64,000 nt of DNA from Nereocystis luetkeana (taxonomy: Eukaryota > Sar > Phaeophyceae > Laminariales > Laminariaceae): contig JARUPZ010000002.1 in NCBI GenBank assembly GCA_031213475.1, positions 6,023,049 through 6,087,048 of the forward strand. Reading direction: 5' to 3'. Numbering within the stretch: position 1 is the first letter of the stretch; each line of letters begins with the position of its first letter. The notes beneath the pieces are model-generated. The model worked only from the letters and a program-made list of their open reading frames with translations. It ran no database searches and had not been told where the DNA came from. The position numbers were made by a program, and so were the translations under genes. Shown here in pieces: positions 7,262-55,326 of the stretch.

Positions 7262-7312
7262 AAGGCTCACCGCTCCGCTCCATGGCTGCACCGCTGATCC
7301 TCCCGGCCATCA
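7262..7312 (-). pseudogene. Element F Gag-like ORF, fragment right of LTR-B insertion
   Basis: After the target duplication the sequence continues the F Gag-like ORF exactly where it stopped at 105 (compare 31724-31775). Homology ends near 7312, where unrelated sequence starts. Confidence 0.55.
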
Positions 7313-12940: not shown

Positions 12941-13330
12941 TATGTTCTGCGACTCTTTACTCTGTCTAGAGATTTTCGTTTCTTTTACGGAGTCGCCCTG
13001 ACTCGAGGTCAGGGCGATCAGGACATCATCATTCTGTCTAGAACTGTTGATGTTCTGATCCAAGTAACTCTGTCTAGAGCTACTGCTATTTTCTCCAGTC
13101 TCGCGTGTCCCCTGTGCCCAAGGGGTTCCCCGTGGGCTAAGGGCTGGCAACTCAACATAATTATGTCGAGTAGTACTGTTGTTCTGTGGCTCATCATTCT
13201 GTCTAGAGTTGTTTTTACCTTTGCTGACATTGCCCAGCACCCACAAGGGCTCCCCCGGTTTGGGGGCGAGCGGAGACACTCATTCCAACATCTGACTAAA
13301 AATACTCTTGTTCTTTTTACTCATACTACA
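12941..13330 (-). repeat. 234-bp repeat family, about 1.5 units
   Basis: On the minus strand the open frame 12920-13279 carries the same 78-residue repeat as 46320-47385 (SSSSRQSYLDQNINSSRQND and ELPALSPRGTPWAQGT). TCTAGA-containing boxes recur inside each unit. LTR D lies directly against it. Confidence 0.7.
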
Positions 13331-13375
13331 TGTTGACAACTTTTCAGCTTTGTCGCGCGCGCGCACAGTCCGTTC

Positions 13376-13698
13376 TTATTTTACGACTTTCCTAAACGTT
13401 CTGTTGTCTCTATACTCTCTATCATCAGCCTCTGGGTTTACTACGGCGCATTTTGTCATCATGTTGAGGTGCCTCCGGTAGTCCCACCGACTTACGGCTG
13501 TCCACGAACGTCGAAATTCCGACCTCCGCACCGCACCCCCCGCCGTTCGGCCCCACCTCCGGGCGAGGCCCGCCCTGTTAATTCCCACCCGGTCCTCTCC
13601 CCCCCCCGCCCCGTGCCGACCTTGTCCTCCGCTCTCTCTCCTCTGCTGCCCGTGCGAGAAGCTGAACCTTGCGACCCGCGCTGGAGGAGCCGTCTGAG

Positions 13699-13729
<31 letters not shown>

Positions 13730-15160
13730 ATGCTGCTGCCAATGCTGCTGCTGAGGTTGGTGTTGCTGCTGGGGCTGCTGCTGCTGGTACGTTGCGGCGG
13801 TGGCGGTTGTGGTACAGGCAGTCCTGGGGCTCCCGTCCCGTCTATCGCAAAAGGACCGTGCGAGTACGAGCAGTTGTTGCGGGTGCATTGTTGCCTCCGC
13901 CAAGCGAAGAGGCATGTTCCCTCCGGCATGCGTTCCCGCTCCAAACCTGACACGGAAGACTACGCCGGAGCGCGCCGTCCGTGCGAGAACGAGCAGCCGG
14001 GGGGGTGCGCTTCAACTGCGTTCGCCTTCCTTTTGAGAGGCTTCGCCGCTGTCGTTCCTCCGCCAAGCCTGGGCACTTCGAGTGCGATGTCCATCCGACC
14101 CAGCAAGCTGCAGCTCCCCCGCGAAGTAAGCTCGCGGAGCAGGGTGAAGGCTGGGGGTGTCAACGCTGCACACGCTCCTTCGGGAGGGGCGGCGTTGGGT
14201 AACTGCCGTTTCACGGGGGCCGCAGCGTCAAGGAGCAGTCCGAAGAAGTCATTGATGTCACGGTTAGCGACGAAAATCACGCGACCCCGCACTGCCAGAA
14301 GCGAGTTGAAGTGCGTAGTCATGTACGCGATGAGTGTCTTGGCCATGATCTGAAACTCCTCGATCAGACAATCCCTCCTGCCCTGCGACACGCCACCTGT
14401 TGACTCTGCGTCCCCCTGTTGGATGACCTTAACGAGGACATTGACGAACGTCTGGAAATGAACCTCCGGCGTACGGGACACTGTCAAGGTTCCCTGTTCC
14501 ACCGGGGGCGAGAAGACGTCAATATCAATTTTGGCTAATGGGAGGGGGATCATGCCGAGAAGGCGCTGGCTGGGATCCGCGATGTACCTGATCGTATGGG
14601 CGAAATCACCTGTCAAGATTGAGGGAACAAACAGACCACCGCGCAGCACATACATCGATGCTGCTCCTGCTTCTTGTCACATCCTGATGCTCCGCATCTG
14701 CGGCCATGGTGCGCGCTTCGATGCTCACCGCGTGCTCCATTTGACCCAAAAGGCTCCCCGCTTTGTCTCATGGCTGCACCGCTGGTCCTCCCGGCCACTA
14801 CCGTCCCGGGTGCTGCACGCTCGGAGGGTGAAAAAATTGCGCGTGTGGTGCGGCATGCAAGTACGGCTGCGAATGCTGCGCCTCCAACTGCTGCTGCTGC
14901 TGCTGTTGATGCGGCCAGTACGCGAGGGGAGGGACTGCCGGGTGCGATTGTTGTTATGGGGGCGGCGGTGGGAGTGCTGGATGCGGCTGCTGTTGTTGCT
15001 GTTCCTGCGGCAGATATTTCATCGGCAGCGCGGGAAGCTCGAACGGCTGTGGTTGCCAGTGTTGCTGCTGTTGTTGATGCTGACCTTGCTGGTGTGGCTG
15101 CTGGTGGTGGTGCTGCTGCGACGGTGCTTCCTGCTGTTGTTGCTGCTGCGAGTCAGACAC
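13376..15160 (-). pseudogene. Element F Gag-like protein, copy 1
   Basis: Reading leftward, the pieces are: a Gln/Pro-rich N-terminal part (about 14954-15160), a linker, the conserved central domain (13960-14655, with RGGLFVPS, FAHTIRYIADPSQRLLGM, QTFVNVLVKVIQQGD and RDINDFFGLLLDAAAP), then a CCCH zinc finger near 13900 (Cys-x8-Cys-x4-Cys-x3-His in CLFAWRRQQCTRNNCSYSH) and a second Gln-rich stretch with an RG-rich tail ending about 13376. Pieces sit in different frames, so there are several frameshifts. A retroelement Gag or RNA-binding role is inferred from the recombinase next to copy 3. The N-terminus is lost at the junction with LTR-A sequence near 15165. Confidence 0.55.
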
Positions 15161-18202: not shown

Positions 18203-18463
18203 CAGCACCGCCACCACCAGCAACACGTTCGGGGGGTGGGTGGGAGTGGTACTCAGCCTTTCGTATCATCGCAATATAACTGTTTAAAATTGATGTTTGT
18301 TATGATTGGCTCAAGAATTGAGGTATTAATTTACGCAGTAAAGCAATGCCGAAGAGGACAAACACATGTTACAATGGGACACCGAACTCCCAGCACACGC
18401 TTCGGGCTAACCCGCTTTCTACGATTACGTTTCGACCAGTACCCCTAAGGAAAACGAACAACT

Positions 18464-18648
18464 TTTTTTTTTTTTTTTTTTATCCTCCGGCGGATTGGTA
18501 AAAATAAAGCTTAAGCTCACCACACTTCCACGTTCGTGTCGTGTGTCAATTTAGCCCCGTTGGGCACGTCGACCCGACCTGACCCCCGAGAGGAGCAGGT
18601 GCGGTGGAGATAGCCACCCGGGAGAGTCATCTCTCCCGGGTAGTGTGG
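18464..18648 (-). mobile_element. SINE-like insertion with poly(A) tail
   Basis: The insert is about 185 bp and ends on the minus strand in a run of about 18-20 A. It is bounded by perfect 11-bp repeats AACGAACAACT (18453-18463, 18649-18659), the hallmark of target-primed insertion, and interrupts a sequence that is continuous at 39026-39070. Its 5' end carries an 11-bp perfect hairpin. TGGCTATCTCC and GGGTCGACGTGCC could be degenerate Pol III A and B boxes. No ORF is present. Confidence 0.7.
18616..18641. other. Perfect 11-bp hairpin in the SINE-like insert
   Basis: ACCCGGGAGAG and CTCTCCCGGGT are exact reverse complements separated by TCAT, at the 5' end of the insert. In an RNA this would be a very stable stem. 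Confidence 0.85.
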
Positions 18649-18963
18649 AACGAACAACTGGTCGAACTCTTTCCCCCTCCAACACGTACATTACCTAAGA
18701 TGCTCCCCCCTCCCCCCTCTCTTGAGCGTTAGGGTGGGATGGTGGGAAAAAAACGCTCCAAGCCTGTATGTATATCGCTGCCTGTATTTGACTCCTATTA
18801 TCTCGTGTTCTGCCTGCTTCTTCTCTCGCTGGTTCTCCCCCTCTGCTTGGGGCGCGAACTCTGACCAGGTACCCTCATCCATCCCCTTTCCATATGTCAC
18901 ATTGTAATGCCTCCCAATCCTTCTCAACGCCTTTTTAACAAACTCGATATTCGCTTTAAACAT

Positions 18964-26815: not shown

Positions 26816-27360
26816 TAAAGCACTTCGACTCGCACCATTCACGCTTTTTTATCAATGTTGTCTTTTTTTGTACCAGTACGTCCACCTCGCTTTTACCCAA
26901 GGCGAAGAGTTTGGGCGCGCTTATACGCATGGTGTGCGATTGTACCTTAACATTTCACAGCTACTCCCAATCCTGGGGAGTAAAGAAAATTATGTTCGAG
27001 AGAATACTGCTGCTGCTGTAGGTACTTTGCACGCTCGCAGTATTTCGTTTATTTTGTACTACTCAAGATACTGGGAGTATTCGCAGTATTTTGAGTTTTT
27101 GTACTCCTCCTACTTCAGATACTACTGCGTATACTTTCGGGCTCGCACATATTCGGGGTTCGCTACTGCTGCTGTCTGTCGTGGATGCTCCCTGTTGTGC
27201 TTCAAGTATATCAGGATTCCGTATCGCGAGTAATGCAAGTACTAGTCTAGCAGTATTTCGTCCGCCGGTAGTGTTTGTAGTGCTTCTGCGAGTACTCGAA
27301 GTAGTACCAAAATACCCTCAATATTCCCAGTATACTTCGACCGTCAGCGCACACTCTGTC
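26816..27360. other. Unassigned stretch with AGTACTCG-like motifs
   Basis: No gene is recognised. From 27000 to 27340 the sequence is rich in degenerate AGTATT and AGTACTC motifs, giving Tyr/Ser-rich open frames; this looks like diverged simple repeat. A similar flavour is seen at 33380-33720. Confidence 0.4.
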
Positions 27361-27672
27361 TAGCGATTTTCTTTTCTTTTACGGACTTGCCCTGACTCGA
27401 TGTCCGGGCGATCAGAACATCATCATTCTGTCTAGAACTGTTGATATTCTGATCAAAGTGGCTCTGTCTAGAGCAACTGCTATTTTCTTCCGTCTCGGTA
27501 GTGCCCTGTGCCCAAGGGGTCTCCCCTGGGCAAAGGGCTGGCAGCTTAACAAAATCCTGTCTAGGATGGCCGTTGTTCTGCGACTCGTTACTCTGTCTAG
27601 ATATTTTCTTTTCGTTTACGGACTTGCCCCGACTTGAGATCTGGGCGATCGGGACATCATCATTCTGTCTAG
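27361..27672 (-). repeat. 234-bp repeat family, about 1.3 units
   Basis: Same family as 46320-47320, reverse orientation (TCTGTCTAGA boxes, CCCTGACTCGA, GGGCAAAGGGCTGGCAG). It abuts the LTR-A at 27673. Confidence 0.7.
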
Positions 27673-28740: not shown

Positions 28741-29070
28741 TGTAGCTCCCAGCGCCCCATCTGTAGAACACGCTCGGAGCATGTCCTCACCTGTGAAAAA
28801 TATGTTTTTCTTCCTGCCTCATCTGCATCTGAGTGAGGTGGGGGCTCACCTGCATCTGAGGTGGGGGGCCCCTCTCGAAGGCCTCCATCTGCATTTTGAC
28901 AATAATCTTCACGTTTACTGTTTCGGCCCCGGCATCTTCAGCTTCGCCTGCATGGATTCCACTGCACGCTACTATCGTCCTACCATACCACCTCACCTTT
29001 AACTGAAACTTTACAGAGTTTTGCCAGTCCATAATCGTGGGCTATACGTGGCCACACTACCCAAACACTG

Positions 29071-29366
29071 CGGTGATTGTCCACGTTGCCCCTCCCTGTA
29101 TGTCTGCTCGCTTGATAGTCTAACCTGTGGTGACGGCCCACCGCTTGGTACCCAAATATACTTGCGTACTGGACTGTCGATATTGCAAAAGTTCACGTAC
29201 CTTTGGCAAACGTGCATGCGGTGATTGCCCACGTTGCCCCTCTTTAAATATCTGCGCGCTTGATAGTCTAACCTTTAGTAACGGCCCACAGCTTGGTACC
29301 CAAATATACTTGCATACTGGACTGCCGATATTGCGAAACTTCACGTACCTTTGGCAGACGTTTCAA
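29071..29366. repeat. 148-bp tandem repeat, two units
   Basis: CGGTGATTG starts units at 29071 and 29219. Each contains GCGCTTGATAGTCTAACC and GCTTGGTACCCAAATATACT. Three units lie at 49972-50413 and one at 16430-16570. Confidence 0.85.
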
Positions 29367-31160
29367 CCTGCGCAGTGGACTGTGTCGATGATGCCACCAC
29401 TCACTTACCTTCGCCAGAGGTTTCTCACTGTGCCTTCCTTCACCAACACTTTCTGCGTATATTAGCATTAATCTACCACTCTGAAGTACGTCCGGATGTC
29501 TCTTAGTCTCTTGATACGTATTATCACGTTCTGACTTATCGATTACCCTCGATCGTGCGTAATACGGGGTTTATATGACATACGCCTACCTTTTGGCGAT
29601 TATCTCAAACTTCTCTGCAATGAAAGTAGGGACTTCTGGCGAATGTGGAGCTGGTTGTATGTATGAGTTCGTCACGGACGTGCTGTAGGAAGTTCATGAT
29701 GAGTCCTCTTTCTACTCCCTCCTCCTGATGTAGAGTTGTACTCGGTATCCTTCGAGTGTTTCGTCTTTCATGCACTAGACAAAGTTATTATTCGATTCCG
29801 AGTGACTGCATTCGATTTCGAGTGACTACATCGTTCGAATTTCTTCTCCCTCCTCCTGATGTAGAGTTCTGCTTGGTATCCTTCGAGTATTTCGACTTTC
29901 TGGCACTAGCCAAAGCTATTATCCGCTCCTGAGTGACTACATCGTTTGAAGGTACTGGCGTTCACGCCACTTTGACTCACGGCCACTTCTAAATTGCTTC
30001 CAAGTATTGTATCTGTTGAGATATTGAGCTAATGTGAGGGGCTCAGGAACTTCTGGTGCCCCCCTACTGTGGGATGGCTCACTACCCAGGGTAACTATTT
30101 ATTCCGAGTAAGTAAGTCGTTTGAAGGTACTGACGTTTACCACTTCGACTTGCGGGCCCTTCTAAATTGCTTCCAAATATTTTATCTGTTGAGATATTGA
30201 GCTAATGTGAGGGGCTCAGGAACTTCTGGTGCACCCCCACTGTGGGATGGCTCACTAGCCAGGGTAACTATTTTATTCCAAGTAAGTATGTCGTTTCAAG
30301 GTACTGACGTTTACGCCACCCCCCCAGCACGAACAGTGTCCACTGATGTGACATTTTCGTGCTCAAACAAATCATGAGTCCTCAAACGTCGTTCATCCAC
30401 AACCACTTCCGGATCGTACCCCTTGCATGACGGTTTTTGTGGAGGTAGATGTAGAAAGGTGGTGACGAACACCCCCCCAGAACGGAAACTACCTACCGCC
30501 TATTGGCATTCCAATCACACCTCTCGATTCGTTCCTTCAACACTGGGCCACCATACTTGGAGCCTCGAAAAGCAGGGCATCCTGTTAGGTTGCGCAGATC
30601 ATACCAAAGCTTGTCACGTTCCATCTCGGTCATGGGTCTCACAAATGTGTACCTGTGGGTGGTGCAGCGAAATGCACATGCACTCGTCCCTTTGGACATC
30701 TGGGCATTTAAACGTTATCATACCTGGTATAGTCCTCATGCACGTCTTATGAGACGTACAAGTATCTGAATAATAACTGAATCTGTGTGAACAATCCCCA
30801 AAGCCTGGGTATTATCACGAAAACGTTTAGCAACACACTATGGTCTGTATCCTACTGATGTTGGGTTTAGGAGCCTGGTCGGTCGTGATATTTGCATAGC
30901 TGCGTCGAACTATACCACTCTCGTAGCTGGGTTCTAGGTCTGACTTGCCTCCCATTCAACTGTCACTGATATTGTGCCATCGTTGCGATCAAAGCTGTGG
31001 TCACCTGGATCACACTATGATGATAACATTTGTTTCCAACATCAGTCATGCAATTTAGCATTTCTGCAACCGTTCTTCTCCGACCAGGCGGATCACATGA
31101 TACTCGGATACGGACGACAAAATAGTGATGTGTGGTACGCTCAACAACCACGCTCGCCTT

Positions 31161-32558
31161 CGCAAACTGCCGTTTCACGGGGGCCGCAGCGTCAAGGAGC
31201 AGTCCGAAGAAGTCGTTGATGTCACGGTTAGCGGCGAAAATCACGCGACCTCGCACTGCCTGCTGCTTCGGCAGAAGCGAGTTGAAGTGCGTAGTCATGT
31301 ACGCGATGAGTGTCTTGGCCATGATCTTAAACTCCTCGATTAGACAATCCCTCCTGCCCTGCGACAGGCCACCTGTTGACTCTGCGTCCCCCTGTTGGAT
31401 GACCTTAACGAGGACATTGACGAACGTCTGGAAATGAACCTCCACGTACGGGACACTGCCAAGGTTCCTTGTTCTACCGGGGGCGAGAAGGCGTCGACAT
31501 CAATGTTGGCTAATGGGGGGGTGATCATGCCGAGAAGGCGCTGGCTGGGATCCGCGATGTACCTGATCGTATGGGCGAAATCACCTGTCAACATTGAGGG
31601 AACAAACAGACCACCGCGCAGCACATACATCGATGCTGCTCCTGCTTCTTGCCACATCCTGGTGCTGCGCTTCGCGGCATCTGCGGCCATGGTGCGCGCC
31701 GCGTGCTCCATTTGACCCAAAAGGCTCCCCGCCCCGCCTCATGGCTGCACCGCTGGTCCTCCCGGCCACCACTGTCCCGGGTACTGCACGCTCGGATGGT
31801 GAAAAAATTGCGCGTGTGGTGCGGCATGCAGTACGGCTGCGGATGCTGCGTCTGCAACTGCTGCTGCTGCTGTTGCTGCGGCCAGTACGTGAGTGGAGGG
31901 ACTGCCGGGTGCGATTGTTGCTGTTGTGGGGGCGGCGGCGGGGGTGCTGGATGCGGCTGCTGTTGTTGCTGTTCCTGCGGTAGATGTCCCATCGGCAGGG
32001 CTGGAAGCTCGAACAGCTGTGGTTGCCAGTGTTGCTGCTGTTGTTGATGCTGACCTTGCTGGTGTGGCTGCTGCTGATGCTGCTGCTGCGACGGTGCTGT
32101 CCCATCGGCAGGGCTGGAAGCTCGAACAGCTGTGGTTGCCAGTGTTGCTGCTGTAGTTGATGCTGACCTTACTGGTGTGGCTGTTGCTGATGTTGCTGCT
32201 GCGACGGTGCTTCCTGCTGTTGTTGCTGCTGCGACAGTGACTGCTGCGGCTGCTGGTGCTGCTGCTTTTGCGGCTGGTGCTGTTGCTGCTGCTGCTGCTG
32301 AGCTTGGGGTTGGTCTTGCGGGCTCGGCTGAAAGCGTTCGATCAGAAGATTCAGAGCTTCCAGCAGCAACTCCTGCAGAGTTGACTTTACGATCGCTCCC
32401 GCCCCACGTTGGGCGCCTCCCGCCCAGCTTCCGGCGCCTCCCTCTCCAGCCTCGCCTCTGGTAACGTCTCCCCCGCCCTCGTCACTGGCGGCGTCTGCGT
32501 CGTTTCTGGTTGTCATTGCTGCGGCATACGTCGTGCGACGTTTTCCGTTCTTCGTCAT
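31161..32558 (-). pseudogene. Element F Gag-like protein, copy 2 (N-terminal and central parts)
   Basis: The ATG at 32558 (minus) opens a frame that reads TKNGKRRTTYAAAMTTRND, an acidic Asp/Glu/Gly stretch, a helical STLQELLLEALNLLIERF segment and a long Gln-rich region (about 32330-31850). After frame changes the central domain follows (31720-31165; HTIRYIADPSQRLLGM, VKVIQQGDAESTGG, RDINDFFGLLLDAAAP). A frameshift lies near 31450. The zinc finger and C-terminus are missing because the copy is fused to LTR-A segment C at 31160. This copy best shows the N-terminus. Confidence 0.55.
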
Positions 32559-32795
32559 CCTGCGCATGCAAAAAAAACGCTCCAAGCCTGTATGTATATC
32601 ATTGCTCGTATTTGGCTACTATTTTCTCGCGTTCTGCCTGCTTTTTCTGTCGCTGGTTCTCCCCCTCTGCTTGGGGCACGGACTCCGACCAGGTACCCTC
32701 ATCCATAATCCACTTCCCATATGACACATTGTAATGCCCCCCAATTCTTATCAACGGCTTTTTAACAAACTCCATATTCGCTTCGAATATTTTAA
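32559..32795 (-). pseudogene. Element F 5' ORF (IFEANVEFVKK-type), copy 2
   Basis: The minus frame 32832-32599 reads IFEANMEFVKKPLIRIGGHY, then VSYGKWIMDEGTWSE and a Gln/Glu/Lys-rich tail. Versions occur at 36554-36750, 18963-18760 and 46140-46000 with different upstream neighbours, so sequence near 32795 (TTAAAATATTCGAAGCG) is taken as the F 5' end. No family is recognised. Confidence 0.45.
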
Positions 32796-32799
32796 CTGC

Positions 32800-33365
32800 T
32801 GTAGTTAGGGGCTCTGTTGGACGTATCTTCACGACGAGCTGTGATAATAAAAGCCTCGGATTCCGAACAATACGACATCAACCCTACGATAACAAGTGCT
32901 GCACTGCTGTAGAGAAGGGGCTCTGTTGGTCGTATCTTCACGACGAGCTATGATAATGAAAGCCTCGGACTCCGAGCAATACGACATCAACCCTACGATA
33001 ACAAGTGCTGCGCTGCTGTAGTTAGGGGCTCTGTTAGTCTTATCTTCACGACGAGCAGTGATAATAAAAGCCTCAGACTCCGAGCAATATGACATCAACC
33101 CTACGATAGCAACTGCTGCACTGCTGTAGTTGGGGGCTCTGTTGGTCGTATCTTCACGACGAGCTGTGAAAATAAAAACCTCGGACTTCGAGCTTTACAC
33201 CAAAGTCAACCTCGCGAAAACATCTGCTGCACTGCTGTAGTTGTTGGGGGGGGCTCTGTTTGCGAATTCAAAACATCTGCGACGGACTGCGGATCGAAAG
33301 TTTCGGACTCCGAGCAAGTACGACATCAAGTCCACATCAGCTTCTGCTGCACTGCTGCAGGAGTT
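32800..33365. repeat. 108-bp tandem array, about five units
   Basis: GGGCTCTGTTGG-like starts recur near 32811, 32920, 33028, 33136 and 33253 (109, 108, 108 and 117 bp). 108 bp is 36 codons, so the minus frame repeats SESEAFIITARRED in register, but later units lose the frame. The array lies upstream of the copia remnant. Function unknown. Confidence 0.8.
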
Positions 33366-33720: not shown

Positions 33721-34498
33721 ATGGGAGACTCCAGCAACAGTAACACCCACAACCTCGCCAACACCGTTAAGGGGCTTTAGGTTTTCAGTGGAAGTTTGCC
33801 CTCGGAGTTCAAAGACTGGCGGAAACAAAACTGCTTGGTGCTTAGCATCAATCGCAGGGATGTCTACGCAATCATGAAAGGGCAGCCCAGGCCGACCACG
33901 GCAACCGGGGGGTCGACTGCGACAACAGGGGGTAGAACTCTCGCGCAGCAACAGGAAGCGTATGACAGAGTGTCTCACGGCCTCTACGCGATCCTATTTA
34001 TGGGGACGTAAAAACCGGCATCTCTCATCGTGCTCAAACACAAGGATACAACCGGCGCTAGCGGTGGTGGGCGGAGGGTCTGGGAGGAACTTCAAGAGAA
34101 GTACCTCCAGGTTACCGACGAAACTATCCGCTCCAAGACGGCAGAACTGGCAGCAACCACCATGAAGTCCGGGCAAGACCCGGACAACTACTTCACCGAG
34201 GCGATAATCAAGCGCGCCGAGGTGGAGGCGATGGACGAGCCCATGACGGACCGGCGGTTTAAGGACATCGTCGTTCAAGGGTTTATGACGGAGTACGAGA
34301 GCATCAAGTTAATGATGTATCGTGATCCGACCTTTGACCTCGCCCAGATCCAGACGACAATGCGTCATCTGTATCTAGACAACCTGCCCCGCAGCAATGC
34401 GGCGAAGGGTAGGATTGCCGGACGCGGTGTCGCCATGTCAGCGGATAGACAGTTGTTTGCTATACCTGTGACAGGTAGGACACGTCTCGCGCAACTGT
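33721..34498 (+). pseudogene. Copia Gag with two stops and a split zinc knuckle
   Basis: From ATG 33721 one frame runs through TAG (33778-33780) and TAA (34009-34011) and still reads as a Gag of the UBN2 type: FKDWRKQNCLVLSINRRDVY, YDRVSHGLYAILF, then WEELQEKYLQVTDETIRSK and MDEPMTDRRFKDIVVQGF. A CCHC knuckle follows at 34458-34498 (CYTCD then GHVSRNC), but its halves are in different frames. In an intact element Gag would coat the RNA in the particle. This copy cannot make a full Gag. Confidence 0.7.
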
Positions 34499-34501
34499 CC
34501 T

Positions 34502-35698
34502 ATGCCGGGCAAGAGCAACTCCAACAACAAGAAATCTGCTGGGAAACACCAGAAGCAGAGCAAGGACAACAAGGACACCAAGAAGAAACCTCCTGGAGCC
34601 AAGGTTGGATCCGGGGGCGGGGGCGGGGCTGGGCAAACGTGCCCAGTTCACAACTCCACAACTCACAACGATACCGACTACTATGAGCAGGGAGCACCAC
34701 GCCCGCAGAAGGGCAGTGCGTTCACCACAGCTGTATTCGGCGCCCACACCTCTCTTGCTGATGACGACGAGAAACCGACCTTCAACCTCAATGGCGACTT
34801 CGACGGTGGTTTCCTGTGGATGGCTCCTACAAACGGAAGGACATTTGCGCCCAACAGCTTTGGAATGACGATGCTGGTGGACAGTGGGGCGACAGAACAC
34901 TTCTTCGACGACAAGCTGATCTCCGGTCTGGCTGACCGTATGACGGATCACACGCTGCTGGATACGCCCAAGACGATCGTGACCGCCGGCAACAAGGAGC
35001 TGCGCGGGACTGCAACTGGCATCCTCTGCGGCACCATCGTCAATCGGGCTGGTAAAGAGCATCGGGTACGGTTTCCCGCCTTGATCGTTTCGGGCCTGGG
35101 CCGCCACATCTTTCCTCCCACCGCAGCAATGAAGCGGGGGATCACTACCATCCTCGAGGAAGGTACTCCGCACCTGCGGAAGGGCGACGTCGTGGTGCCA
35201 CTGCAGCAAGAGGAGGAGGACATACGTCTGTGTTCTTTTGAAGTGGAACTCGACGAGGCATCGTCGTCACTGGAAACTCCGCCGTATTCCCACCTGCCAA
35301 CTAAAGGACTCGACTACGTCGACGACAACGAAGAGGCCTTCGCACGAGACGTTATCGGCTACACCTCCTTCCTCGACCCCATCATTTTCGACAATAAGGA
35401 GGAGGTTGCTCCAGCGCAAGTAGAGCACCTACATGCGAGGATTCGAGACATGACGCGAAAAAACGAGGACAAGAAGTCGGCTGATGGAGCTTCATCACCT
35501 GGGACGGACGGAACATCGTCGCCTAGGGCAATCGGAGCACCATCACCTGGGGCTGACGGAATATCATCTCCTGGGGCAATTGTAGCATCTTCGCCTAGGG
35601 CTGACGGAACATCATCATCCGGGGCTACTGGAGCATCATCACCGGAGGTCGACGAATCGACACCGCCTACTTCACCTGGGGTCGCACTAGCTGCGTAA
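34502..35698 (+). pseudogene. Copia protease region, integrase deleted
   Basis: The 398-codon frame starts after the zinc knuckle with a Lys/Asn/Gly-rich linker and a CPVHNSTTHND stretch, then the aspartic protease with its active site MLVDSGATEHFFDD (about residues 123-136) and IVTAGNKELRGTATG. Instead of the pre-integrase zinc finger and DDE core, it passes after about residue 250 to a Ser-Pro-Gly-rich tail (ASSPGTDGTSSP type, 27-bp repeats) that normally lies between integrase and reverse transcriptase. A deletion of roughly 1.3-1.5 kb is inferred. It ends out of frame with the next ORF. Confidence 0.7.
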
Positions 35699-35699
35699 C

Positions 35700-36597
35700 T
35701 CTCGCCTCCATACGAGCCAACCCTAACACCGAGGACATCAGCTACGACGCCCTCACTGACTACCAACTACGGGAAATTCGCACGCTCATGCCAGCGAAGG
35801 GGCCACCGCGCGTCAACCTCGCGGGAGGGTCTCTGGATATCGCACACGATGATGGAGAACCACTTCTGGCATCGATGGCTTTAATGTACGCAACTGGCGG
35901 CCTGACTGACGAAGGCATCGCCGAGGAGACGCAGGAGCGTGTCATCATCCCCAACCAGTACGAGGACGCAATGAAATCCCGACAGCGCAAGCAGTGGCTA
36001 GGAGCAATCGACAAAGAGATGAAGAGCCTGCAGGAGCATGAGGTCTACGACTTGGTGCTTATCACTAGTGTGCCAAAGGAGAAGAAGATCGTCGGCTCCC
36101 GTTTCGTGTTTAAGCAGATGGCGGACAACCGGTTCAAGGCTCGACTTGTCGTCCAAGGCTACGTTCAGGAGCCCGGCATCGACTTCGGAAAGTCGTTTGC
36201 ACCAGTCCTCCGCCTTGGAAGCCAGCGCGTATTGCTGGCAAGGGCATGCGAGCATGGCTGGCCAATCTACCAGCTCGATGTTCAAGTAGCGTTTCTGAAG
36301 AGCAAGATCGACTCCGAGGTGTACGTCCAACTAGCTCTGGGACAAGCGACCACGGATGGCAAAACGGGCGTACCTTTGGTGATAGGGCTGAAACGCAGCC
36401 TGTACGGTCTAGTGCAGTCACCGGTCCTTTATTACGACACCATCGACGCGGCGCTGCTAGGTATCGGATTCATGCCTCCGTTGTCGGACCCTTACGTTTA
36501 CACGCATGGAATCGACGACACCTTCGCCATCCCAACACTGTACGTCGATGATACTAAAATATTCGAAGCGAATGTGGAGTTTGTTAAAAGCCGTTGA
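35700..36597 (+). pseudogene. Copia reverse transcriptase, truncated after YVDD
   Basis: The frame (ATG at 35788, open from about 35680) shows the RVT_2 landmarks: WLGAIDKEMKSLQEHEVYDL, GSRFVFKQM, KARLVVQGYVQEPGIDF, SFAPVLRLGS, YQLDVQVAFLKS, LKRSLYGLVQSP and LYVDD at about 36538. The rest of the palm, thumb and RNase H is absent. Sequence after YVDD (IFEANVEFVK) is the start of element F and ends at a stop at 36597. A -1 shift separates it from the protease frame. Confidence 0.75.
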
Positions 36598-36769
36598 TAA
36601 GAATTGGGAGGCATTACAATGTGTCATTTGGAAAGTATATTACGGATGAGGGTACCTGGTCAGAACTCGTGCCCCAAGCAAAGGGGGAGAAACAGCGAGA
36701 GAAGAAGCAGGCAGACCGCGAGATAATAGCAGCCAAATACGGGCAGTGATATACATTTAGGATTGGAGC

Positions 36770-37980
36770 GTGACGAACAACGGAAAACGTCGGACGACGT
36801 ATGCCAGCAGTGACAACCAGAAACGACACAGAGGCCGCCAGTGACGAGGGCGGAGGAGGATACGTCCCCAGAGGCGAGGCGGGAGAAGGAGGCGCCTTCT
36901 CGGCATGATCACCCCCCCATTAGCCAAAATTGATGTCGACGCCTTCTCGCCCCCGGTGGGACAGGAAACCTTGGCAGTGTCCCGTACGCCGGAGGTTCAT
37001 TTCCAGACGTTCGTCAATGTCCTCGTTAAGGTCATCCAACAGGGGGACGCAGAGTCAACAGGTAGCGTGTCGCAGGGCAGGAGGGATTATCTGATCGAGG
37101 AGTTTCACACCGTGGCCAAGACACTCATCGCGTACATGACTACGCACTTCAACTCGCTTCTACCGAAGCAGCAGGCAGTGCGGGGTCGCGTGATTTTCGC
37201 CGCTAACCGTGACATCAATGACTTCTTCGGACTGCTCCTTGACCCTGCGGCCCCCGTGAAACGGCAGTTTCCCAAAGCCGCTCCTCCCGAAGGGGCGTGT
37301 GCAGCGTTGACACCCTCAGCCTTCACCCTGCTGCGCGAGCTTACTTCGCGGGGGAGCTGCAGCTTGCTGGGTCGGATGGACATCGCACTCGAATTGCCCA
37401 GGCTTGGCGGAGGAACTACAGCGGCGAAGCCTCTCAAAAGGAAGGCGAACGCAGTTGGAGCGCACCCCCGGCTGCTATTTACTAGTTCTCGCACGGACGG
37501 CGCGGCGCCGGTGTCGTCTTTCGTGTCAGGTTTGGAGCGGGAACGCACGCCGGAGGGAACGTGCCTCTTCGCTTGGCGGAGGCAACAATGCACCCGCAAC
37601 AACTGCTCGTACTTGAACGGTCTTTTTGTGATAGACGGGACGGGAGCCCCAGGACTGCCTGTACACAACCGCCACCGCCGCAACGGTACCCGCAGCAACA
37701 GCCCCAGCAGCAACAGCAACCTCAGCAGCAGCAACCTCAGCAGCAGCATTAGCACCAGCATCAGCAGCAGCAACAGGAGCAGCAGCAACAGCAGCCACAG
37801 CCACAGACTCAGACGGCTCCTCCAGCGCGGGTCGCGAGGTTCAGCTTCTCGCACGGGCAGCAGGGGAGGGGGAGTGGAGGGCAAGGTCGGCAGGGGGTGA
37901 GGGGAGGGGAGAGGATAGGGTGGGAATTGACAGGGCGGGCCTCGCCCGGAGGCGGGGCCAAACGGCGGGGGGTGCGGGGT
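36770..37980 (+). pseudogene. Element F Gag-like protein, copy 3
   Basis: The start ATG of copy 2 is GTG here (36770), and the acidic N-terminus (36770-36900) is fused straight to the central domain, the Gln-rich part being deleted. From 36905 one frame of 331 codons is intact: central domain (QTFVNVLVKVIQQGD, FNSLLPKQQAVRGRVIFAAN, RDINDFFGLLLDP), LLRELTSRGSCSLLGRMDIA, then the zinc finger CLFAWRRQQCTRNNCSYLN, in which the final His is lost (SYSH to SYLN). A Ser/Asn-rich low-complexity tail follows after a frame change. The recombinase starts about 100 bp further on. Confidence 0.6.
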
Positions 37981-38084
37981 GGAGGTCGGAATAGCAAAAC
38001 GCTGCTGCCGTCTCAGAGCGATTGAAGGGAAGAGTCCGTGGCTAGCAGAGGGTGATGGAGCCGACGCAGCAGTGAAATAATTGA

Positions 38085-38998
38085 CGAAATTCATGGTCCT
38101 GCGATGCTTTGCATTCAAAAAACAAAGCCAGACCCATACGAGGTTATCTTTCCGCGATTAAGTATTTCCACAGAATGTTCGGAGGTTGGGAGCTGCCCAC
38201 TTCACACTGCATGGTTGTACCCGTAGGGAAAAGGATCGATAGAGCTCACGGAAAATCGGAGATACGCCCCAAGCTCAGGAAGCCTCTTACGTGGGACCTG
38301 TTGACCACGGGGATGGAGAGCGCGGGTGCGTTGGAAACCGAAGGATGGGTAGTCTGGACCGGACTTGCGTTGTCGTTTCATCTTTTTGTAGAGCCTCTGA
38401 AATTTGGGCCTACGGCAACGGACTGGTACACGCAGATTTTTGTCTGACGAGAAGAGACTTGGCGTTTTTTTCGGGAGCGTTCCAACTAGCGTGGGAAGAA
38501 AGACGTTCTGCAGACAGGGTAGAAGTGACCTTCCGCGCTTCCAAGTCAGACTCCAAGAGGTTGGGGTCAATCGTCACTAGGACGAGAGGAACAAAAGGGA
38601 AGGGAAGGTTTTGGGACGTACAGAGTCAGGGGGCGTTGGAGATCCTCCTGGATTCACTAGACCTTCATCCCGAACTTAGCAGGTCAGCACCATTGATGCA
38701 GACACACACGCACGGCCCACGGGTGGAAGGTGATCACGCGCACCGTTGCAACAAAGGCCTTGAGGCGGATGTGAAGTAGTTTGGGTAGAGACCCGACTCA
38801 GTACGCTCTCCACTCAGGCAGGATCGGGGGGGCAAATCAGCTTGCTGCGCAAGGTGCATCAGACATTTAGATTCAAAGGACGGGGAGATGCAAATCACTA
38901 GCGTTCATGGTCTATGTAAGAGCAGGAGGGGAGGGAGCAGATTTTGTGTCCGAAGCAAACAAAGTAATAATGGCAGGAAGATCAGGTCATTTAATTTG
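38085..38998 (+). pseudogene. Tyrosine recombinase (YR), frameshifted
   Basis: Frame 0 (to about 38388) gives an N-terminal SAM-like domain (IRGYLSAIKYFHRMFGGWELP) and RKPLTWDLLTTGM. Frame 2 (to about 38717) gives the first catalytic Arg in CRASEIWAYG and the hairpin Lys in TFRASKSD. Frame 0 resumes with the HxxR box HSGRIGGANQLAAQG and the nucleophile Tyr in FMVYVR (Tyr codon 38913-38915). Two in-frame stops (38772, 38868) and two frameshifts disable it. GRC replaces the usual GRW before the Tyr. Box style (GGA after HSxR) fits DIRS/Crypton-type recombinases. It would integrate a circular DNA intermediate. Confidence 0.75.
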
Positions 38999-39928
38999 AG
39001 GTATAATCGGGCTTTCCTGATGGGAAAGAGTTCGACCAGTTGTCCGTTTCCCCTTGGGGTACTGGTCGAGACGTAAACGTAAAAAGCGGGTTAGCCCGAA
39101 ATGTGTTCTGGGAGCACGGTGTCCCATTGTACCATGTGTTTGTCCTCTTCGGCATTGCTTTACTGCGTAAATTAATACCACAATTCTTGAGCCAATCATA
39201 ATATCTCACGATGGATGAGGCGGTGATTCCCGCAATATATACAATACAAAATAAATCGACTGCTGGGACCGCCTAACAAGAGTGGGCGCAGCGAAGGACT
39301 GAAGTCTTCTCGCAATATAAATCCAAGGCACAGGCCGCATGCTGATAGGGAGTTAAAGAGCCTGCTTTGTGACCCCGGGTGTTTATACGTAAGAAGGATA
39401 GAGAAAAAAGGGTGAAGAGAACAAATCGGATGGAAATAAATAATATATCTGTTTCGTACATACATAACTACGAAGTAGTAATTTAAGGTATGAACAATCG
39501 GCGAACGCGTACGCAGAAACACTGCACGGTTGGTGGACGTCGAGCGGTTTCAAGATCGGGTTGGTTCAAATAAGACGCTGCTGTCACTAACTCCCGTCAT
39601 TTGTGCCCCATACTGTATGTAGGAACTATGTCAAGACTTGGTTGTGCGAGTGTGGCGCATAATGATGTTCTCACACTATTAATAAAGTAGCACACATTAA
39701 ACTCCGGCCACAAAACAGGCTGTAACTAAAATGCATCTCGGTAGGAGAAAAAAAACACTGAAGAAATAGTGACCAATACGTAAGAGAAACGGTACTAACG
39801 AGATACCCGATATGGGATACCACCCCGTATCAATTGCAACTAAATGACACCATGAACGTACCCATGCTGTATTATTATGTGTACACCCGAAACTAAAATA
39901 AAGGACAAAGAAAGGAGAACTACAGCAG

Positions 39929-45448: not shown

Positions 45449-46148
45449 GTTGTTGCTGTTCCTGCGGCAGATGCCCCATGGGCAGGTCGGAAAGCTCGAA
45501 CGGCTGTGGTTGCAAGTGTTGCTGCTGTTGTTGATGCTGACCTTGCTGGTGTTGCTGCTGCTGGTGCTGCGACGGTGCTTCCCGCTGCTGTTGCTGCAGC
45601 GACAGTGACTGCTGCTGGTGCTGCTGCTGTTGCGGCTGCTGTTGCTGCTGCTGAGCTTGGTGTTGGTTTTGCGGGCTCGGCCGAAGGCGTTTGTTCAGAA
45701 GATTCAGAGCTTTCAGCAGCAGCTCCTGCAAAGTTGACTCTACGGTCGCTCCCGCACCACTTCCGGCGCCTCCCGCCCCGCTTCCGGTACTTTCCTTTCC
45801 AGCCTCGCCTCTGGTGACGAATCCGCTCCGCCCTCGTCACTGGCGGCGTCTGCGTCGTTTCTGGTTGTCACAGCTGCGGCATAGGTCGTCCGACGTTTTC
45901 CGTTGTCCGTCATCCTGCGCAGGCAAAAAACGCTTCAAGCCTGTATGTATATCACTGCCCGTATTTGCCTACTATTATCTCGCCTTCTGCCTGCTTCTTC
46001 TCACGCTGGTCTTCCCCCTCTGCCCTGGGGCACGAACTAGGTACCCTCATCCATAATCCACTTTCTATATGACACATTGTAATTATTTTCAATTTTTATC
46101 AACGCCTTTTTAACAAACTCCACATTCGCTTCGAATATTTTAATTTTC
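45449..46148 (-). pseudogene. Element F 5' ORF and Gag N-terminus, copy 4
   Basis: From the right: 5' end TTAAAATATTCGAAGCG near 46148, the IFEANVEFVKKALIKI ORF (46140-46040), a spacer, then ATG 45913 of Gag (TDNGKRRTTYAAA), acidic and Gln-rich parts (LQELLLKALNLLNKR). LTR-A inserted at 45448 removes the rest. The Gag frame is broken near 45740. Confidence 0.5.
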
Positions 46149-46319: not shown

Positions 46320-47320
46320 CATTAGCCCAGGGAAGACCCCTTTGGGCACAGGGGACACGCGAGGCTGGAGAAAATAGCAGTAGCTCTAGACAGAGGTTTT
46401 TTGAGCAGAACATCAATTCCAGACGGACGGTTGATGTCCTGATCACCCTGATCCCGAGTCAGGGCAAGTCCGTTAGAAAAAAGAGAATCGCCAGACAGAG
46501 TAACGAGGCGCAGAAGAACAGTAATGGTAGACGTACTTACGGTGTTCGAACAGCCCTTAGTTAGTCCAGGGGAAACCCCTTGGGCACAGGGCACAACCGA
46601 GTCGGAAGAAAATAGAAGTAGCTCTAGACAGAGTCGCTTGGATCAGAACACCATCAATTCTAGAAAGAATGATGATGTCCTGCCCTGACCTCGAGTCAGG
46701 GCGACTCCGTCAAAGAAACGGAAATTTCGAAACAGAGTGACGAGTTGCAGAACAACGGCCATCCTAGACAGGACTATGTTGATTTACCAGCCCGTAATCC
46801 AGGGGAGACCCCTTGGGCATAGGGCACAACCGAGACCGGGAGAAAATAGCTGTAGCTCTAGACAGAGTTACTTTGATCAGAATATCAACAGTTCTAGACA
46901 GAATGATGATGTCCTGATCGCCCTGACCTCGAGTCAGGGCAAGTCCGTAAAAAAAAAGAAAATATCTAGACAGAGTGATGAGTCGCAACGGCCACACTAG
47001 ACAGGATTCTGTTGAGCTGCCATCCCTTAGCCCATGGGAGACGCCTTGGGCACAGGGCACAACCGAGACGGAAGAAAATAGTAGTAGCTCTAGACAAAGG
47101 TGCTTTGATCAGAATATCGACAGTTCTAGACAGGATGATGTCCTGATCGCCGTGACCTCGAGTCAGGGCAAGTCCGTAAACAAAGAAAAAATCTCTATAC
47201 AGAGTACCGAGTCGCAGAACGAGAGTAAGTCTAGACAACAGTACAGTGATTTGCCAGCCCTTAGTCCAGGGAAGAGCCCTTGGGCACAGGACAGTTTGTC
47301 AAACGAAAAATACTTACAAG
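46320..47320 (+). repeat. 234-bp tandem repeat, about 4.3 units
   Basis: CTTGGGCACAGGG-type starts recur at 46343, 46581, 46814, 47047 and 47281 (238, 233, 233 and 234 bp). Each unit has several CTAGACAGA boxes and CTCGAGTCAGGGC. Shorter blocks are at 12941-13330 and 27361-27672. Confidence 0.85.
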
Positions 47321-47385
47321 GGTCGGTACGACAAGTAGCACCTTCAGATGGAGTTGTACTGTACCAGGCAGGAAAAATTCGCTGA
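46737..47385 (+). pseudogene. 78-residue repeat protein
   Basis: The period of 234 bp equals 78 codons, and the frame carries per unit NDDVLIALTSSQGKSVK, KISRQSDESQ, ELPSLSPWETPWAQGTTETE and SSSSRQSYFDQNIN. Frames 46737-47000 and 46975-47385 are one ORF with a shift near 46985. Ser/Gln/Glu-rich and probably disordered. The plus frame at 47348-47560 continues with a coiled-coil-like stretch (KFAELNEKWKQTKMWMTDQT). No family is recognised; it may be an extra ORF of an unseen element, since the family occurs at three sites. Confidence 0.4.
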
Positions 47386-47587
47386 ACTGAACGAAAAATG
47401 GAAGCAAACAAAAATGTGGATGACCGACCAAACCAGCGAACTAAACCACACGAAAAACATCATACGGGAGGCGGAGACAGGCACGAGACTTTTGCATGTA
47501 AGCGCTGGTAAAGTGGGAGATGTGGCCGTTGGGCTCGGAGGCACTCGGTGTCACCTCCGTTGGCCGTCGATCTCATCGAACACTACT

Positions 47588-48129
47588 TGTTGCAGCGCTG
47601 CGGGCTCTAGGAGTCACCCAGGTGGGCGACAGGGTATTCTGTGATGTACGTCGACTGACCTGACCAGTGACGCACGGAGGGTGCATCGTGTAAGGCAGCG
47701 ATAAAGCCGTAGGATGGCTCGCTGTCATATCGACGTAGGTATACAATGGAGTGTCTCCGGCGGGGGAGGCCATTGTCTGGGTCATGGAAACCCCGTATCG
47801 GCTGTAGTGGTCAATACGGGTGCCCTGTGGCGCTACCTGGGGTTAGTCAATCCCACCAAAGAAGAACGAAACAAGTCAATCCATACCCTGTTCACACACC
47901 GTGCATGAGCATTGCCTATCACGTACCTGTCTGTTAACCACACGTCGCACTTGCGGAGCAATATAAACACCCAACTCTCGTGGCGTCTGGCCACTTCGTG
48001 GCCAGAGAGGATTCAGGAGCGACGTACGGAGGAAATCCCCAACAGGACTCTCTCAACGAACGACAACAACAGCTGGCTATCGAGGTGAGACCGAGCCAAT
48101 AGCGGCCCAAGAGAAGGTCAGCTGTGACA
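47588..48129 (+). repeat. LTR-B, 5' LTR of a plus-strand element
   Basis: 542 bp, starting TGTTGCAGCGCTGC and ending CAGCTGTGACA, followed by a primer site. Its element extends beyond the window end. Confidence 0.85.
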
Positions 48130-49133: not shown

Positions 49134-50754
49134 CCCCTCCTGCCCGACGCATGACGATCGTCGACACAAAGCGGGCATCCCAGTACTTGCCCGGCGACAG
49201 CGCGTGCGCTTTCCTCCTCTATCGGCCCAACGTTGGTAGCACCCCCCCAGCCGGTATTACGATCATGAACTGCTGCAAAGCGTTCGCCTTCCATCTCCGC
49301 ACCTCGCCGTCGGCTCGATGTTGCTGCTCGTCTCCTTCCTCAGTGTCGCCTCCAGACGGTGGTGAGAAGAGCTGCGATCTTGACCTTCGTCCAGACGTTC
49401 TTCAGCATTCCTCGTCCCATCCATCGCCGTCGGCCCGATGCTGCAGCGCCTCTCCTTTCCGTGATATTGCCCTTGGACGGTGGTAAGAAGTTTCGGACCT
49501 GACCTTCGTCCAGATCTTCTTCAGCATTCCTCCGTCCATCGATGTCGGCCTGATGTTGCAGAGTCTCTCCTTCCCGCGGTCCTGACCGTAGACGCTGTTG
49601 AGAAGAGCGGCGGACCTGACCCCCGTACATTCTTCACGACTTGTAGCTCCCAGCGCCCCATCTGTATAACACGCTCGGAGCATGTCCTCACCTGTGAAAA
49701 ATATGTTTTTCTTCCTGCCTCATCTGCATCTGAGTGAGGTGGGGGCTCACCTGCATCTGAGGTGGGGGGCCCCTCTCGAAGGCCTCCATCTGCATTTTGA
49801 CAATAATCTTCACGTTTACTGTTTCAGCCCCGGCATCTTCAGCTTCGCCGGCATTGGTTTCACAGTACGCTACTATCGTCCTACCATACCACCTCACCTT
49901 TAACTGAAACTTTACAGAGTTCTGCCAGTCCATAATCGTGGGCTATACGTGGCCACACTACCCAAACACTGCGGTGATTGTCCACGTTGCCCCTCCCTGT
50001 ATGTCTGCTCGCTTGATAGTCTAACCTGTAGTGACGGCCCACCGCTTGGTACCCAAATATACTTGCGTACCGGACTGTCGATATTGCAAAAGTTCACGTA
50101 CCTATGGCAAACGTGCATGCGGTGATTGCCCACGTTGCCCCTCTATACATCTGCGCGCTTGATAGTCTAACCTCTAGTAACGGCCCACCGCTTGGTACCC
50201 AAATATACTTGCATACTGAACAGTCAATATTACAAAACGTCACGTACCTTAGGCAAACGTACATGCGGTGATTGCCCACGTTGCCCCTCTCTATACATCT
50301 GTGCGCTTGATAGTCTAATCTCTAGTAACGGCCCACAGCTTGGTACCCAAATATACTTGCGTACTGGACTGTCAATATTGCAAAACTTCACGTACCTTTA
50401 TCCGACGTTTCAACCTGCGCAGTGGACTGTGTCCACCATGCCATTATTCACTCACCTTCGCCAGACGTTTCCCACATTACCTTCCTTCACCAACAGTTTC
50501 TGCGTATATTAGCATTAATCTGCCAGATGTCTCTTAGTCTCTTGATACGGATTATCACGTTTTGACTTATCGATTAACCCCGTTCGCGCGTAATACGGGG
50601 TTTATATGACATACGCCTACCTTTTGGCGACTATCTCAAACTTCTCTGCAATGAGAGTAGGTACTTCTTGCGAATGTGGAGCTGGTTGTATGTATGAGTT
50701 CGTCACGGATGTGCTGTAGGAAGTTCATGATGAGTCCTCTTTCTACTCCCTCCA
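49134..50754 (-). repeat. LTR-A 3' module and adjacent interior
   Basis: Contains the polypurine tract (49134-49148), the 116-121-bp repeat (49330-49640), 24-bp repeats (49725-49775), the 146-148-bp repeat in three units (starts 49972, 50120, 50266), and the 50500-50754 block. It stops abruptly at TCTACTCCCTCC (50743-50754), which continues at 55546. No gene. Confidence 0.7.
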
Positions 50755-53700: not shown

Positions 53701-55326
53701 TACAAACACCAGACCAGACAACCCTCGCACCACCGCTCGTCATCGAAGCGGCAGGTCAGAGGTATAAGCAGACGGCCCAGTTCTTATATCTAGGCGGCGT
53801 TATCCACGAAAACGCTGCGCTCTCGCTCGAAATCGACCGACGGATCCGCCTCATGCGAGCATGCCTCAAACGGTTCGGCCCGGAGTTGTATGATAGGACG
53901 ACCGCCCCCCTTAGCCTTAAAGTCCGAATGCTGAAGGCCGAGGTGATTGAGACCCTGCTGTACGGGTGTGTGACGTGGACCCTCAGAGCGGAACACTTTG
54001 CCAAGCTTCGAACGGCTCACCACCAAGTCCTGCTGCGAGTCATTGGCTTCCAGCGCCGACTTCATACTGACCATGCCACCCTCTCGTACGCGAAGGCCCT
54101 CAAGATGACACGTTGCGAGAGCATCGAAACGACCATTCGTAAACGGCGGCTCTTCTTTGCGGGGGGCGTGGCACGGCAAAGCAAGGAGCGATTACCCAGT
54201 CGGGTAATGTTCGGGACGATAACTGTTGGGGAGAACCCGAGACCAGGCGGACAGTGTAAGACTTGGCATAGATGCATAGTCGAAGACCTTAGGGAGTTCC
54301 GAGCCACCGAAGGGTCAGCGGAAGTTGCCCCCTTGGTGTTTGGAGTTGAGACCGCGTTGTGGCCCACTGCAGCCAAAAAGGCGGGGAAGTGGTACCGGGG
54401 GATCCTTGAAGCAGCCGAACGGTTCATGGTGAGGTGGCACGAGGCTGAGGCTGAGATGAGTAGGCAGCGCCGTGCATCCGCCGTGGATGGTGCCCAAGGG
54501 AACGGGGGGAGGGGGGGCAACAGGAGAAGCGGCAGAAAGTCCGACCGAGGGAATGCGGAGAGGGGGGGGAACAGGAGGGGTAGAAGGGAAACGGCGGTAG
54601 ACGAAAGTAGGAAGGAGATGGCAGACAGGGTAGCAAGGCACCAAGTCGACTAGAAAGTAGAACATGACCCTACTGCTAGTGCTACCAACCGGTGCAGCTG
54701 GTTCGAACGTGGTCTTCCCTTGTCTTCTCTTCTTGTTCTTGTTTTTTTTTTCTTTCTTGCGCTGACTCTCCGTGATTTTCATGTTATTTTTTTCTCTTCC
54801 TCTTCCTTTTCTGATTGATAAGCCGTACTGAAGGAGCCGTGTGGCGTGGTTGGAAGACGAACCTGCTCTGCTCGTTTCGTATTGTCTGACGCCAAGGGGC
54901 TGGGCATAGTTGACGAACGCAGGGCGGAGACGGCAGTCTGGGTAGCAAGGTACCAGGCGGATTAGCAAGGAGAACCGGGCTATACTACTCGTACCACAAG
55001 CTGCTGCCGTCACCTGGAAGGTGCTTTGGGCTTTGGTCTGCCTGTTATTTCCCCTTTGTTATTTTTCCTTGTTACTTTTTTCCTTGGTTCTTTGTCTTAC
55101 TCTGTTCACAAGCAGTGGTGTTTTTTCCTATTTTATTTTATTTTTCCTTCTTTTCTCCAGCTCGTTCTTTTTCAAGTGTTGGCCACCTCGCCTGCGGGGG
55201 GGGGGCACGACAGATTGTTTCTCTTAGATTTTGCTTTCATTTTTCTTCTTTTTCTCTTTCGATTTGTCTACCTTGTTTTTGTTTTCTCTTTGATTGTTTC
55301 TTTTCGTTTCACTATTTCATAGATTG
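50755..55326 (+). mobile_element. LINE-type non-LTR retrotransposon
   Basis: Inserted in the LTR-A interior. A 520-bp GC-rich leader with an A-rich run at 51173-51199 precedes an endonuclease/reverse transcriptase ORF and a T-rich 3' region (54654-55326) containing a diverged direct duplication (GGGTAGCAAGGTACCA near 54939 and the related 54629 copy). The 3' end is ambiguous: no clear poly(A), and a segment-E-like fragment separates it from the resumed host sequence. No target duplication found. Confidence 0.7.
51277..54653 (+). pseudogene. LINE endonuclease-reverse transcriptase, one stop and one frameshift
   Basis: The APE-type endonuclease is N-terminal: YNVRTL, LQETRRSG, VLMDANARTG, QIDYIL and SDHNILYI. 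The reverse transcriptase follows: [74 protein letters not shown] and LYADDAGIV. The C-terminal part has the usual LLYGCVTWTL and HHQVLLRVIGF and a Gly/Arg-rich end. Lesions are a TGA at 52915-52917 and a shift near 53340. The frame is open upstream of the GTG at 51277, so the true start is further 5' or lost. In life it would nick target DNA and copy its RNA there. Confidence 0.8.

Follow-up and report, generated by a model that had tools for sequence, protein, structure and literature searches.

In a 64,000-nucleotide stretch of the Nereocystis luetkeana genome (the window; C2:6023049-6087048, where C2 is contig JARUPZ010000002.1), remnants of a Gag-like open reading frame (ORF) and of a tyrosine recombinase (YR) lie on the same strand at 36555-39200, as an initial annotation of the sequence had recorded. 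Comparison with other copies in the genome indicates that this feature is very probably what deletion has left of a YR retrotransposon, now dead, of the Ngaro/PAT type, in which the direct repeats are split, and that it belongs to a subfamily confined to clusters. The split direct repeats, a conserved in-frame UGA between Gag and Pol, and a distribution of one cluster per chromosome all go beyond that annotation. The genome searched comprised 465 Mb in 1987 contigs, 40 of which exceed 3 Mb and are of chromosome size (the next, C41, has 0.4 Mb); only the best candidates were scored, so that all match counts are lower bounds. Gag and YR are each recurrent and not a matter of chance, with at least 126 scored matches to Gag and at least 150 to the N-terminal part of YR. 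The parts of the window copy are as follows.

36555..39200, + strand: full extent of the decayed copy, comprising an A repeat, a portion of gag, YR and a B repeat; its ends were compared with those of other copies
36555..36896, + strand: A repeat and 5' leader; 36555-36771 is 85.9% identical to A2, and the whole 81% to L035 2-340
36893..37992, + strand: central and C-terminal gag remnant, 87% identical to L035 1130-2184; ORF 36845-37900
37562..37618, + strand: degenerate CCCH finger, C-x8-C-x4-C-x3-N (His lost)
37928..37930, + strand: relic of the in-frame Gag/Pol UGA, AAU-UGA-CAG
about 37993..37996, + strand: internal deletion junction, nearly all of pol removed (about 4.0 kb by L035, 3.46 kb by L029)
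38078..38960, + strand: YR remnant in two alternating frames, Tyr codon at 38913-38915
39022..39200, + strand: B1 repeat, right end of the copy, 89% identical to B2 of L035

Twenty regions with Gag and YR matches on one strand, a few kilobases apart, were chosen for reading. The relatives have the layout A1 - gag (with a CCCH finger) - in-frame UGA - pol - YR - B1 - A2 - B2. Loci L029-L034 form a young sister subfamily, about 96-98% alike over long matches and with long open frames, that is possibly recently active; they carry Gag, Pol and YR in that order, with Pol open for up to 1125 aa. In L029, a Gag frame of 583 aa is followed by UGA, an in-frame Pol of 1125 aa and, after about 170 bp, a YR of 314 aa, with no other long sense ORF inside the element.

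The initial annotation had pointed out that no reverse transcriptase (RT) lies between Gag and YR in the window, and had proposed either a deleted YR retrotransposon or a new combination of the two. The observation is true, and the gap proves to be a deletion junction at about 37993-37996. A genome-wide search with Gag and YR found copies with RT and RNase H motifs between them (L029-L034), and the window aligns with L029 to either side of the missing part, which bears out the first proposal. The window copy aligns only to 1527-2612 and 6076-7290 of L029, with 3.46 kb missing between them, and to 2-340, 1130-2184 and 6198-7397 of L035, a member of its own subfamily, being 91% identical to the last of these over the entire stretch. 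Its gag remnant runs about 20 codons past the Gag stop, so the losses are A2-B2, some 0.8 kb from the 5' part of gag, and the whole of pol except those codons. At the first of its junctions there are a few bases in common, and its left end (36555) adjoins copia RT sequence.

The termini were mapped from several copies, and terminal junction sequences were compared for six loci, giving split direct repeats in the order A1-B1-A2-B2. Self-comparison of 20 fetched loci found both pairs of direct repeats in 8, one pair in 5 and none in 7, although some of these loci may stop short of one or both element ends. Loci with both direct pairs showed no inverted pair at their element ends. Within single copies, the terminal repeats are 87-90% identical in five copies of the clustered subfamily, 91-94% in two copies of a distant family, and 96.6-99.6% in three copies of the young sister. 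The clustered subfamily is old, because its own terminal repeats differ by about 10-13%.

Three blocks of Pol, KADVTDAF, LTFGWAASPGYWG and VYVDDF, which we take to be RT motifs, are conserved into the distant family (VYVDGF in L047); four others, SDAS, LLEL, DNIAAV and IPG..VVAD, presumably of RNase H, were seen only in young-sister copies. RT and RNase H were called by motif only, because library models and profile searches recognised nothing. Pfam models failed to recognise RT, RNase H or YR in any copy that was scanned, a PDB profile search with Pol returned nothing relevant, and a profile comparison of Pol with the RTs of the copia element and LINE (long interspersed nuclear element) in the window was negative; these results all speak against the identification of the element as a YR retrotransposon.

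The recombinase itself is better preserved among the relatives. The initial annotation had listed the YR landmarks of the window copy in a given order, and this order stands (CRASEIW at 38387, FRASKSD at 38531, LHSGR at 38808 and the Tyr codon), but the sequence alternates between two frames with in-frame stops. Relatives carry YR in one open frame, of 261-418 aa in seven loci, some of them truncated. The catalytic R and K are present in all eight aligned sequences and Tyr in all six that reach that far, five of which read HSGR (PSGR in L046). The stretch HSGR..W..Y aligns with Cre, the top PDB match, weakly (E 0.24). A Pfam scan of the Gag-like ORF and YR of the window gave no matches.

An ORF with a CCCH finger had also been reported to recur at five loci. 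Pieces of the Gag region are indeed present at five places (3-102, 13460-15151, 31156-32795, 36893-37992 and 45449-46146), with an extra 61-bp piece at 7263-7323, but the finger itself was found at only two, with its His retained at about 13914 (- strand) and lost at 37562..37618. Among the copies listed by a pattern scan, the intact finger, C-x8-C-x4-C-x3-H, is kept in the young sister and in most of the clustered ones; the scan missed the distant family, in which the same finger was read by eye (L046). An AlphaFold model of the Gag core was uninformative (mean pLDDT 37.8). A literature search for CCCH Gag proteins in DIRS elements returned nothing on the topic as judged by title, the sole item concerning Gypsy elements.

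In its split direct repeats, in the order of Gag, RT-RNase H (by motif) and YR on one strand, and in having no methyltransferase that we could find, the element resembles Ngaro. Recognition of RT and YR by Pfam, a trait seen in Cafeteria Ngaros that is not defining, is absent. The split direct repeat layout has been described for Ngaro, PAT and VIPER elements (PMC6681497, PMC8547959), and Ngaro elements are described as free of methyltransferase (PMC9210276). Ngaro-like elements reported from Cafeteria burkhardae (PMC8547959) and the DIRS/Ngaro elements of Ectocarpus (PMC12477816) share with ours the arrangement A1-[ORFs]-B1-A2-B2, Gag, RT-RNase H and a YR with HxxR and Tyr, and also solo AB repeats and the site preference of single types. 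Unlike them, the element described here has an RT, RNase H and YR unseen by Pfam, a CCCH finger in Gag, Gag and Pol in one frame across a conserved UGA, and one subfamily confined to one place per chromosome. A PAT-like rather than Ngaro-like element seems unlikely, although split direct repeats are common to both groups (PMC6681497) and Ectocarpus is reported to have five PAT-like families beside 15 of Ngaro (PMC12477816). Neither L029 nor the other copies scanned contain a methyltransferase ORF or Pfam match. Known PAT elements carry a methyltransferase. The element is not DIRS-like: that group has inverted terminal repeats and an internal complementary region, and no inverted pair lies at the ends of those loci that have both direct pairs. 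Cryptons are not known to have an RT, a Gag or any enzyme besides YR, and this class is ruled out by the Gag and RT-like Pol of the relatives. The new combination that had been offered as the other possibility, either an element of Gag and YR in which RT was never present or a Crypton lying next to what is left of a Gag gene, would fit the adjacency of Gag and YR in the window copy with no RT between, but is hardly credible, given that relatives chosen from the Gag and YR matches have the two on one strand at a distance of about 4-6 kb, with RT-like Pol between them in the copies read, that the window copy joins both sides of this Pol gap, and that its ends consist of the same terminal repeats, A and B, as those of the full element.

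Gag and Pol are separated by an in-frame stop that is retained across families. We scanned 21 sequences (20 loci and the window) for the Gag/Pol stop, with a requirement for Gln or Pro after any stop that favours CAR codons. A stop was found in 18 of the 21, and it is UGA in all 18; CAR (CAG or CAA) follows in 17 (CCG in L039), and the context AAY-UGA-CAR is present in 16 (L040 has GAU before UGA). Long open frames flank the UGA on both sides in L029 (Gag/Pol 583/1125 aa), L030 (390/850), L031 (494/895) and L034 (270/342), and in L045 of the distant family (462/292). Gag-Pol is probably produced by UGA readthrough, which is suggested because the stop has been retained in place and frame despite only 25-32% identity of Gag between this family and the distant one. 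Weighing on the other side, L038, L041 and L047 gave no Gag/Pol stop, and the frames flanking the UGA are short in decayed copies. A literature search on readthrough in YR retrotransposons found nothing on the topic, as judged by title.

To map the subfamily we used four probes: Gag, the YR N-terminus, the RT of L036 and the terminal-repeat DNA of L037. The distribution counts include 106 of 126 Gag matches (the 20 left out were all checked and lie within 1 kb of retained matches), 137 of 150 YR matches (those left out are mostly on small contigs), 63 of 99 RT matches (close identity only, about 59% or more) and 44 of 47 terminal-repeat matches (the three dropped are on small contigs), and for comparison 109 of 123 copia matches and 36 of 42 matches to a 148-bp tandem repeat. 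Membership of the subfamily was set at 59% identity for YR and 49% for Gag; one YR match at 58% (C24, 6.44 Mb) was assigned to neither the close nor the distant class. Seven young-sister loci (one of them known from search matches alone, and possibly duplicated by the assembly) were taken out by hand together with matches on small contigs, leaving 217. When joined across gaps of up to 250 kb, 209 of these 217 listed matches fall in one cluster per contig, on 29 of the 40 large contigs. The clusters have a median span of 30,470 bp and total 0.31% of these contigs. The cluster on C9 is 269 kb long owing to one outlying repeat, and the matches on C26 are 20 kb away from where that contig ends, as though it had broken there; C26 also has an outlier at 2.31 Mb. 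Copies in different clusters are 81-95% identical by the terminal probe (its own match excluded).

Other repeats behave differently. Among the listed copia RT matches on large contigs, one of 109 is inside a cluster (the window's own) and two are within 50 kb. With joining across gaps of up to 150 kb, the 100 listed matches of the distant Gag/YR family occupy 82 places, with 96 expected at random, whereas the 136 listed close matches, sister included, occupy 38 places versus 129 expected. Four of the 100 distant matches are in clusters (three) or within 50 kb of one (one), and are probably shifted-frame pieces of cluster copies. The 148-bp repeat follows the clusters: 25 of its 36 listed matches on large contigs are within 50 kb of one (0.36 expected), including 13 inside clusters proper. 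Leaving out C2, this holds for 22 of 32 listed matches, on 14 contigs, and the best of 20,000 random draws gave 4. This repeat is a candidate centromere-linked repeat. Further repeats common to the cluster loci were mostly ones also present outside clusters (L030, L048) or were in few loci. Of eight Pfam chromodomain matches (six on large contigs, two on small), none is at a cluster.

On the simplest reading, which is also a likely one, each cluster is a centromere made up in part of an old YR retrotransposon, because there is one short cluster per chromosome, common to two unrelated repeats. The same one-cluster pattern, there combined with Hi-C, was used to name the centromeres of Ectocarpus (PMC11541908), and it has been proposed as a centromere predictor in oomycetes (PMC7082073). 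Several observations detract from the centromere assignment. Clusters hold from 1 to 17 matches, and some are sparse (one match on C31, two each on C26 and C37); no subfamily match was found on C18, C19, C25, C28, C30, C32, C35, C36, C38, C39 or C40, of which C30 and C40 hold the young sister; C2 has lone matches at 3.14 and 16.72 Mb and a second group at 19.19-19.27 Mb; and the young sister is mostly outside clusters (one of seven inside). In the second group on C2 (C2:19188078-19271250), a comparison of two loci of about 4 kb (L003, L004) showed that they are clustered-subfamily fragments in opposite orientation, 98.3% alike and about 75 kb apart, which may be a recent inverted duplication or a misjoin.

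It is also conceivable, if rather improbable, that the clusters are gene-poor islands of another kind where old copies survive, so that confinement would reflect retention and not targeting. The age of the subfamily, its absence from 11 of the 40 large contigs and the location of most young-sister loci elsewhere would fit such retention, but it would have to act on one subfamily, as the distant family and copia are dispersed, and the single cluster per contig is shared with an unrelated repeat. The distant family, whose copies are little younger yet dispersed, makes retention a weak explanation when taken by itself; the pattern would be better explained by a preference for homing or, as with DIRS-1, by the element inserting into copies of itself. 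That the clusters are an assembly artefact, such as collapsed or misjoined repeats, is very improbable: the inverted pair on C2 may be a misjoin, but copies differ between clusters, and in this assembly other repeats are scattered.

On the published model for such elements, Gag would package the RNA, RT-RNase H would copy it, restoring a complete circle of DNA by means of the A and B repeats, and YR would insert this circle at a short A-rich core. The clustered subfamily, now old, would have been restricted to a single short site on each chromosome, most probably the centromere. At the N-terminus of Pol it carries coding repeats of 79 aa that are unlike the young sister's and could be one place to look for a homing determinant. 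We put at about even chances the joint proposition that the centromeres are or were built on a homing YR retrotransposon in place of the Ty3 chromodomain element of Ectocarpus, that homing belongs to one subfamily, unlike its dispersed sister in the 79-aa Pol array, and that its Gag-Pol is made by UGA readthrough.

A precedent for a YR element at centromeres is DIRS-1 of Dictyostelium discoideum, a YR retrotransposon reported to make up about half of centromere sequence and to prefer its own copies (PMC5633606); its repeats are inverted, and it also has a methyltransferase and an internal complementary region, whereas split direct repeats and no methyltransferase were found here. ECR-1 of Ectocarpus (PMC11541908), also from a brown alga, similarly forms one short cluster per chromosome (median 38.6 kb, versus 30 kb here), but belongs to the Ty3-type long terminal repeat elements and has an integrase and a chromodomain. 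CoLT of Phytophthora sojae (PMC7082073) likewise forms clusters that are enriched in centromeres, with about one on each contig in relatives, but is a retrotransposon of Copia type, in centromeres proved by CENP-A, with 14 of 80 copies outside them. Literature searches on the centromeres of brown algae and kelps led to these Ectocarpus and oomycete studies. No centromere-confined Ngaro appears in the portions of PMC7473861 and PMC9210276 that were covered, which does not establish absence from print. Should the clusters prove to be centromeres, a YR retrotransposon would occupy centromeres in a second lineage, one remote from Dictyostelium, and the centromere element would have turned over between brown algae. 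As YR elements have no integrase with a chromodomain, homing would need another explanation, and a confined subfamily with a mostly dispersed sister in one genome is a natural pair for finding its determinant. The clusters offer candidate centromere positions for up to 29 contigs.

Other copies and repeats of the window are listed below.

12943..15151, - strand: another copy from this subfamily, with coding repeats and a gag whose finger (at about 13914) is intact
18296..18953, - strand: terminal repeats of another copy (A and B parts)
27352..27672, - strand: fragment of the element's coding tandem repeats
31156..32795, - strand: A repeat and gag of another copy
34012..36554, + strand: copia remnant adjoining the element, RT identified as Pfam RVT_2 (4.3e-37)
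45449..46146, - strand: A repeat and gag start of another copy
46322..47588, + strand: Pol N-terminal coding tandem repeats (units of about 237-238 bp, or 79 aa) and start of the RT region
49970..50398, + strand (also 29069-29361): 148-bp tandem repeat with no match to the element

The array at 46322-47290 was considered as a satellite and rejected, as its units are the 79-aa repeats that the element encodes at the N-terminus of Pol. A 108-bp tandem repeat of about four copies (32795-33242) starts where the A repeat of another copy begins. The window also contains a LINE at 51172-54650, with endonuclease (Exo_endo_phos, 5.8e-7) and RT (RVT_1, 3.1e-12) ORFs, and a DNA transposon ORF at 22728-24266 with a DDE_3 domain (2.7e-12). 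In keeping with the genome of a brown alga, the EsV-1-7 domain, reported to have proliferated in brown algae (PMC12477816), gave at least 150 scored matches from 1713 candidates in the genome search.

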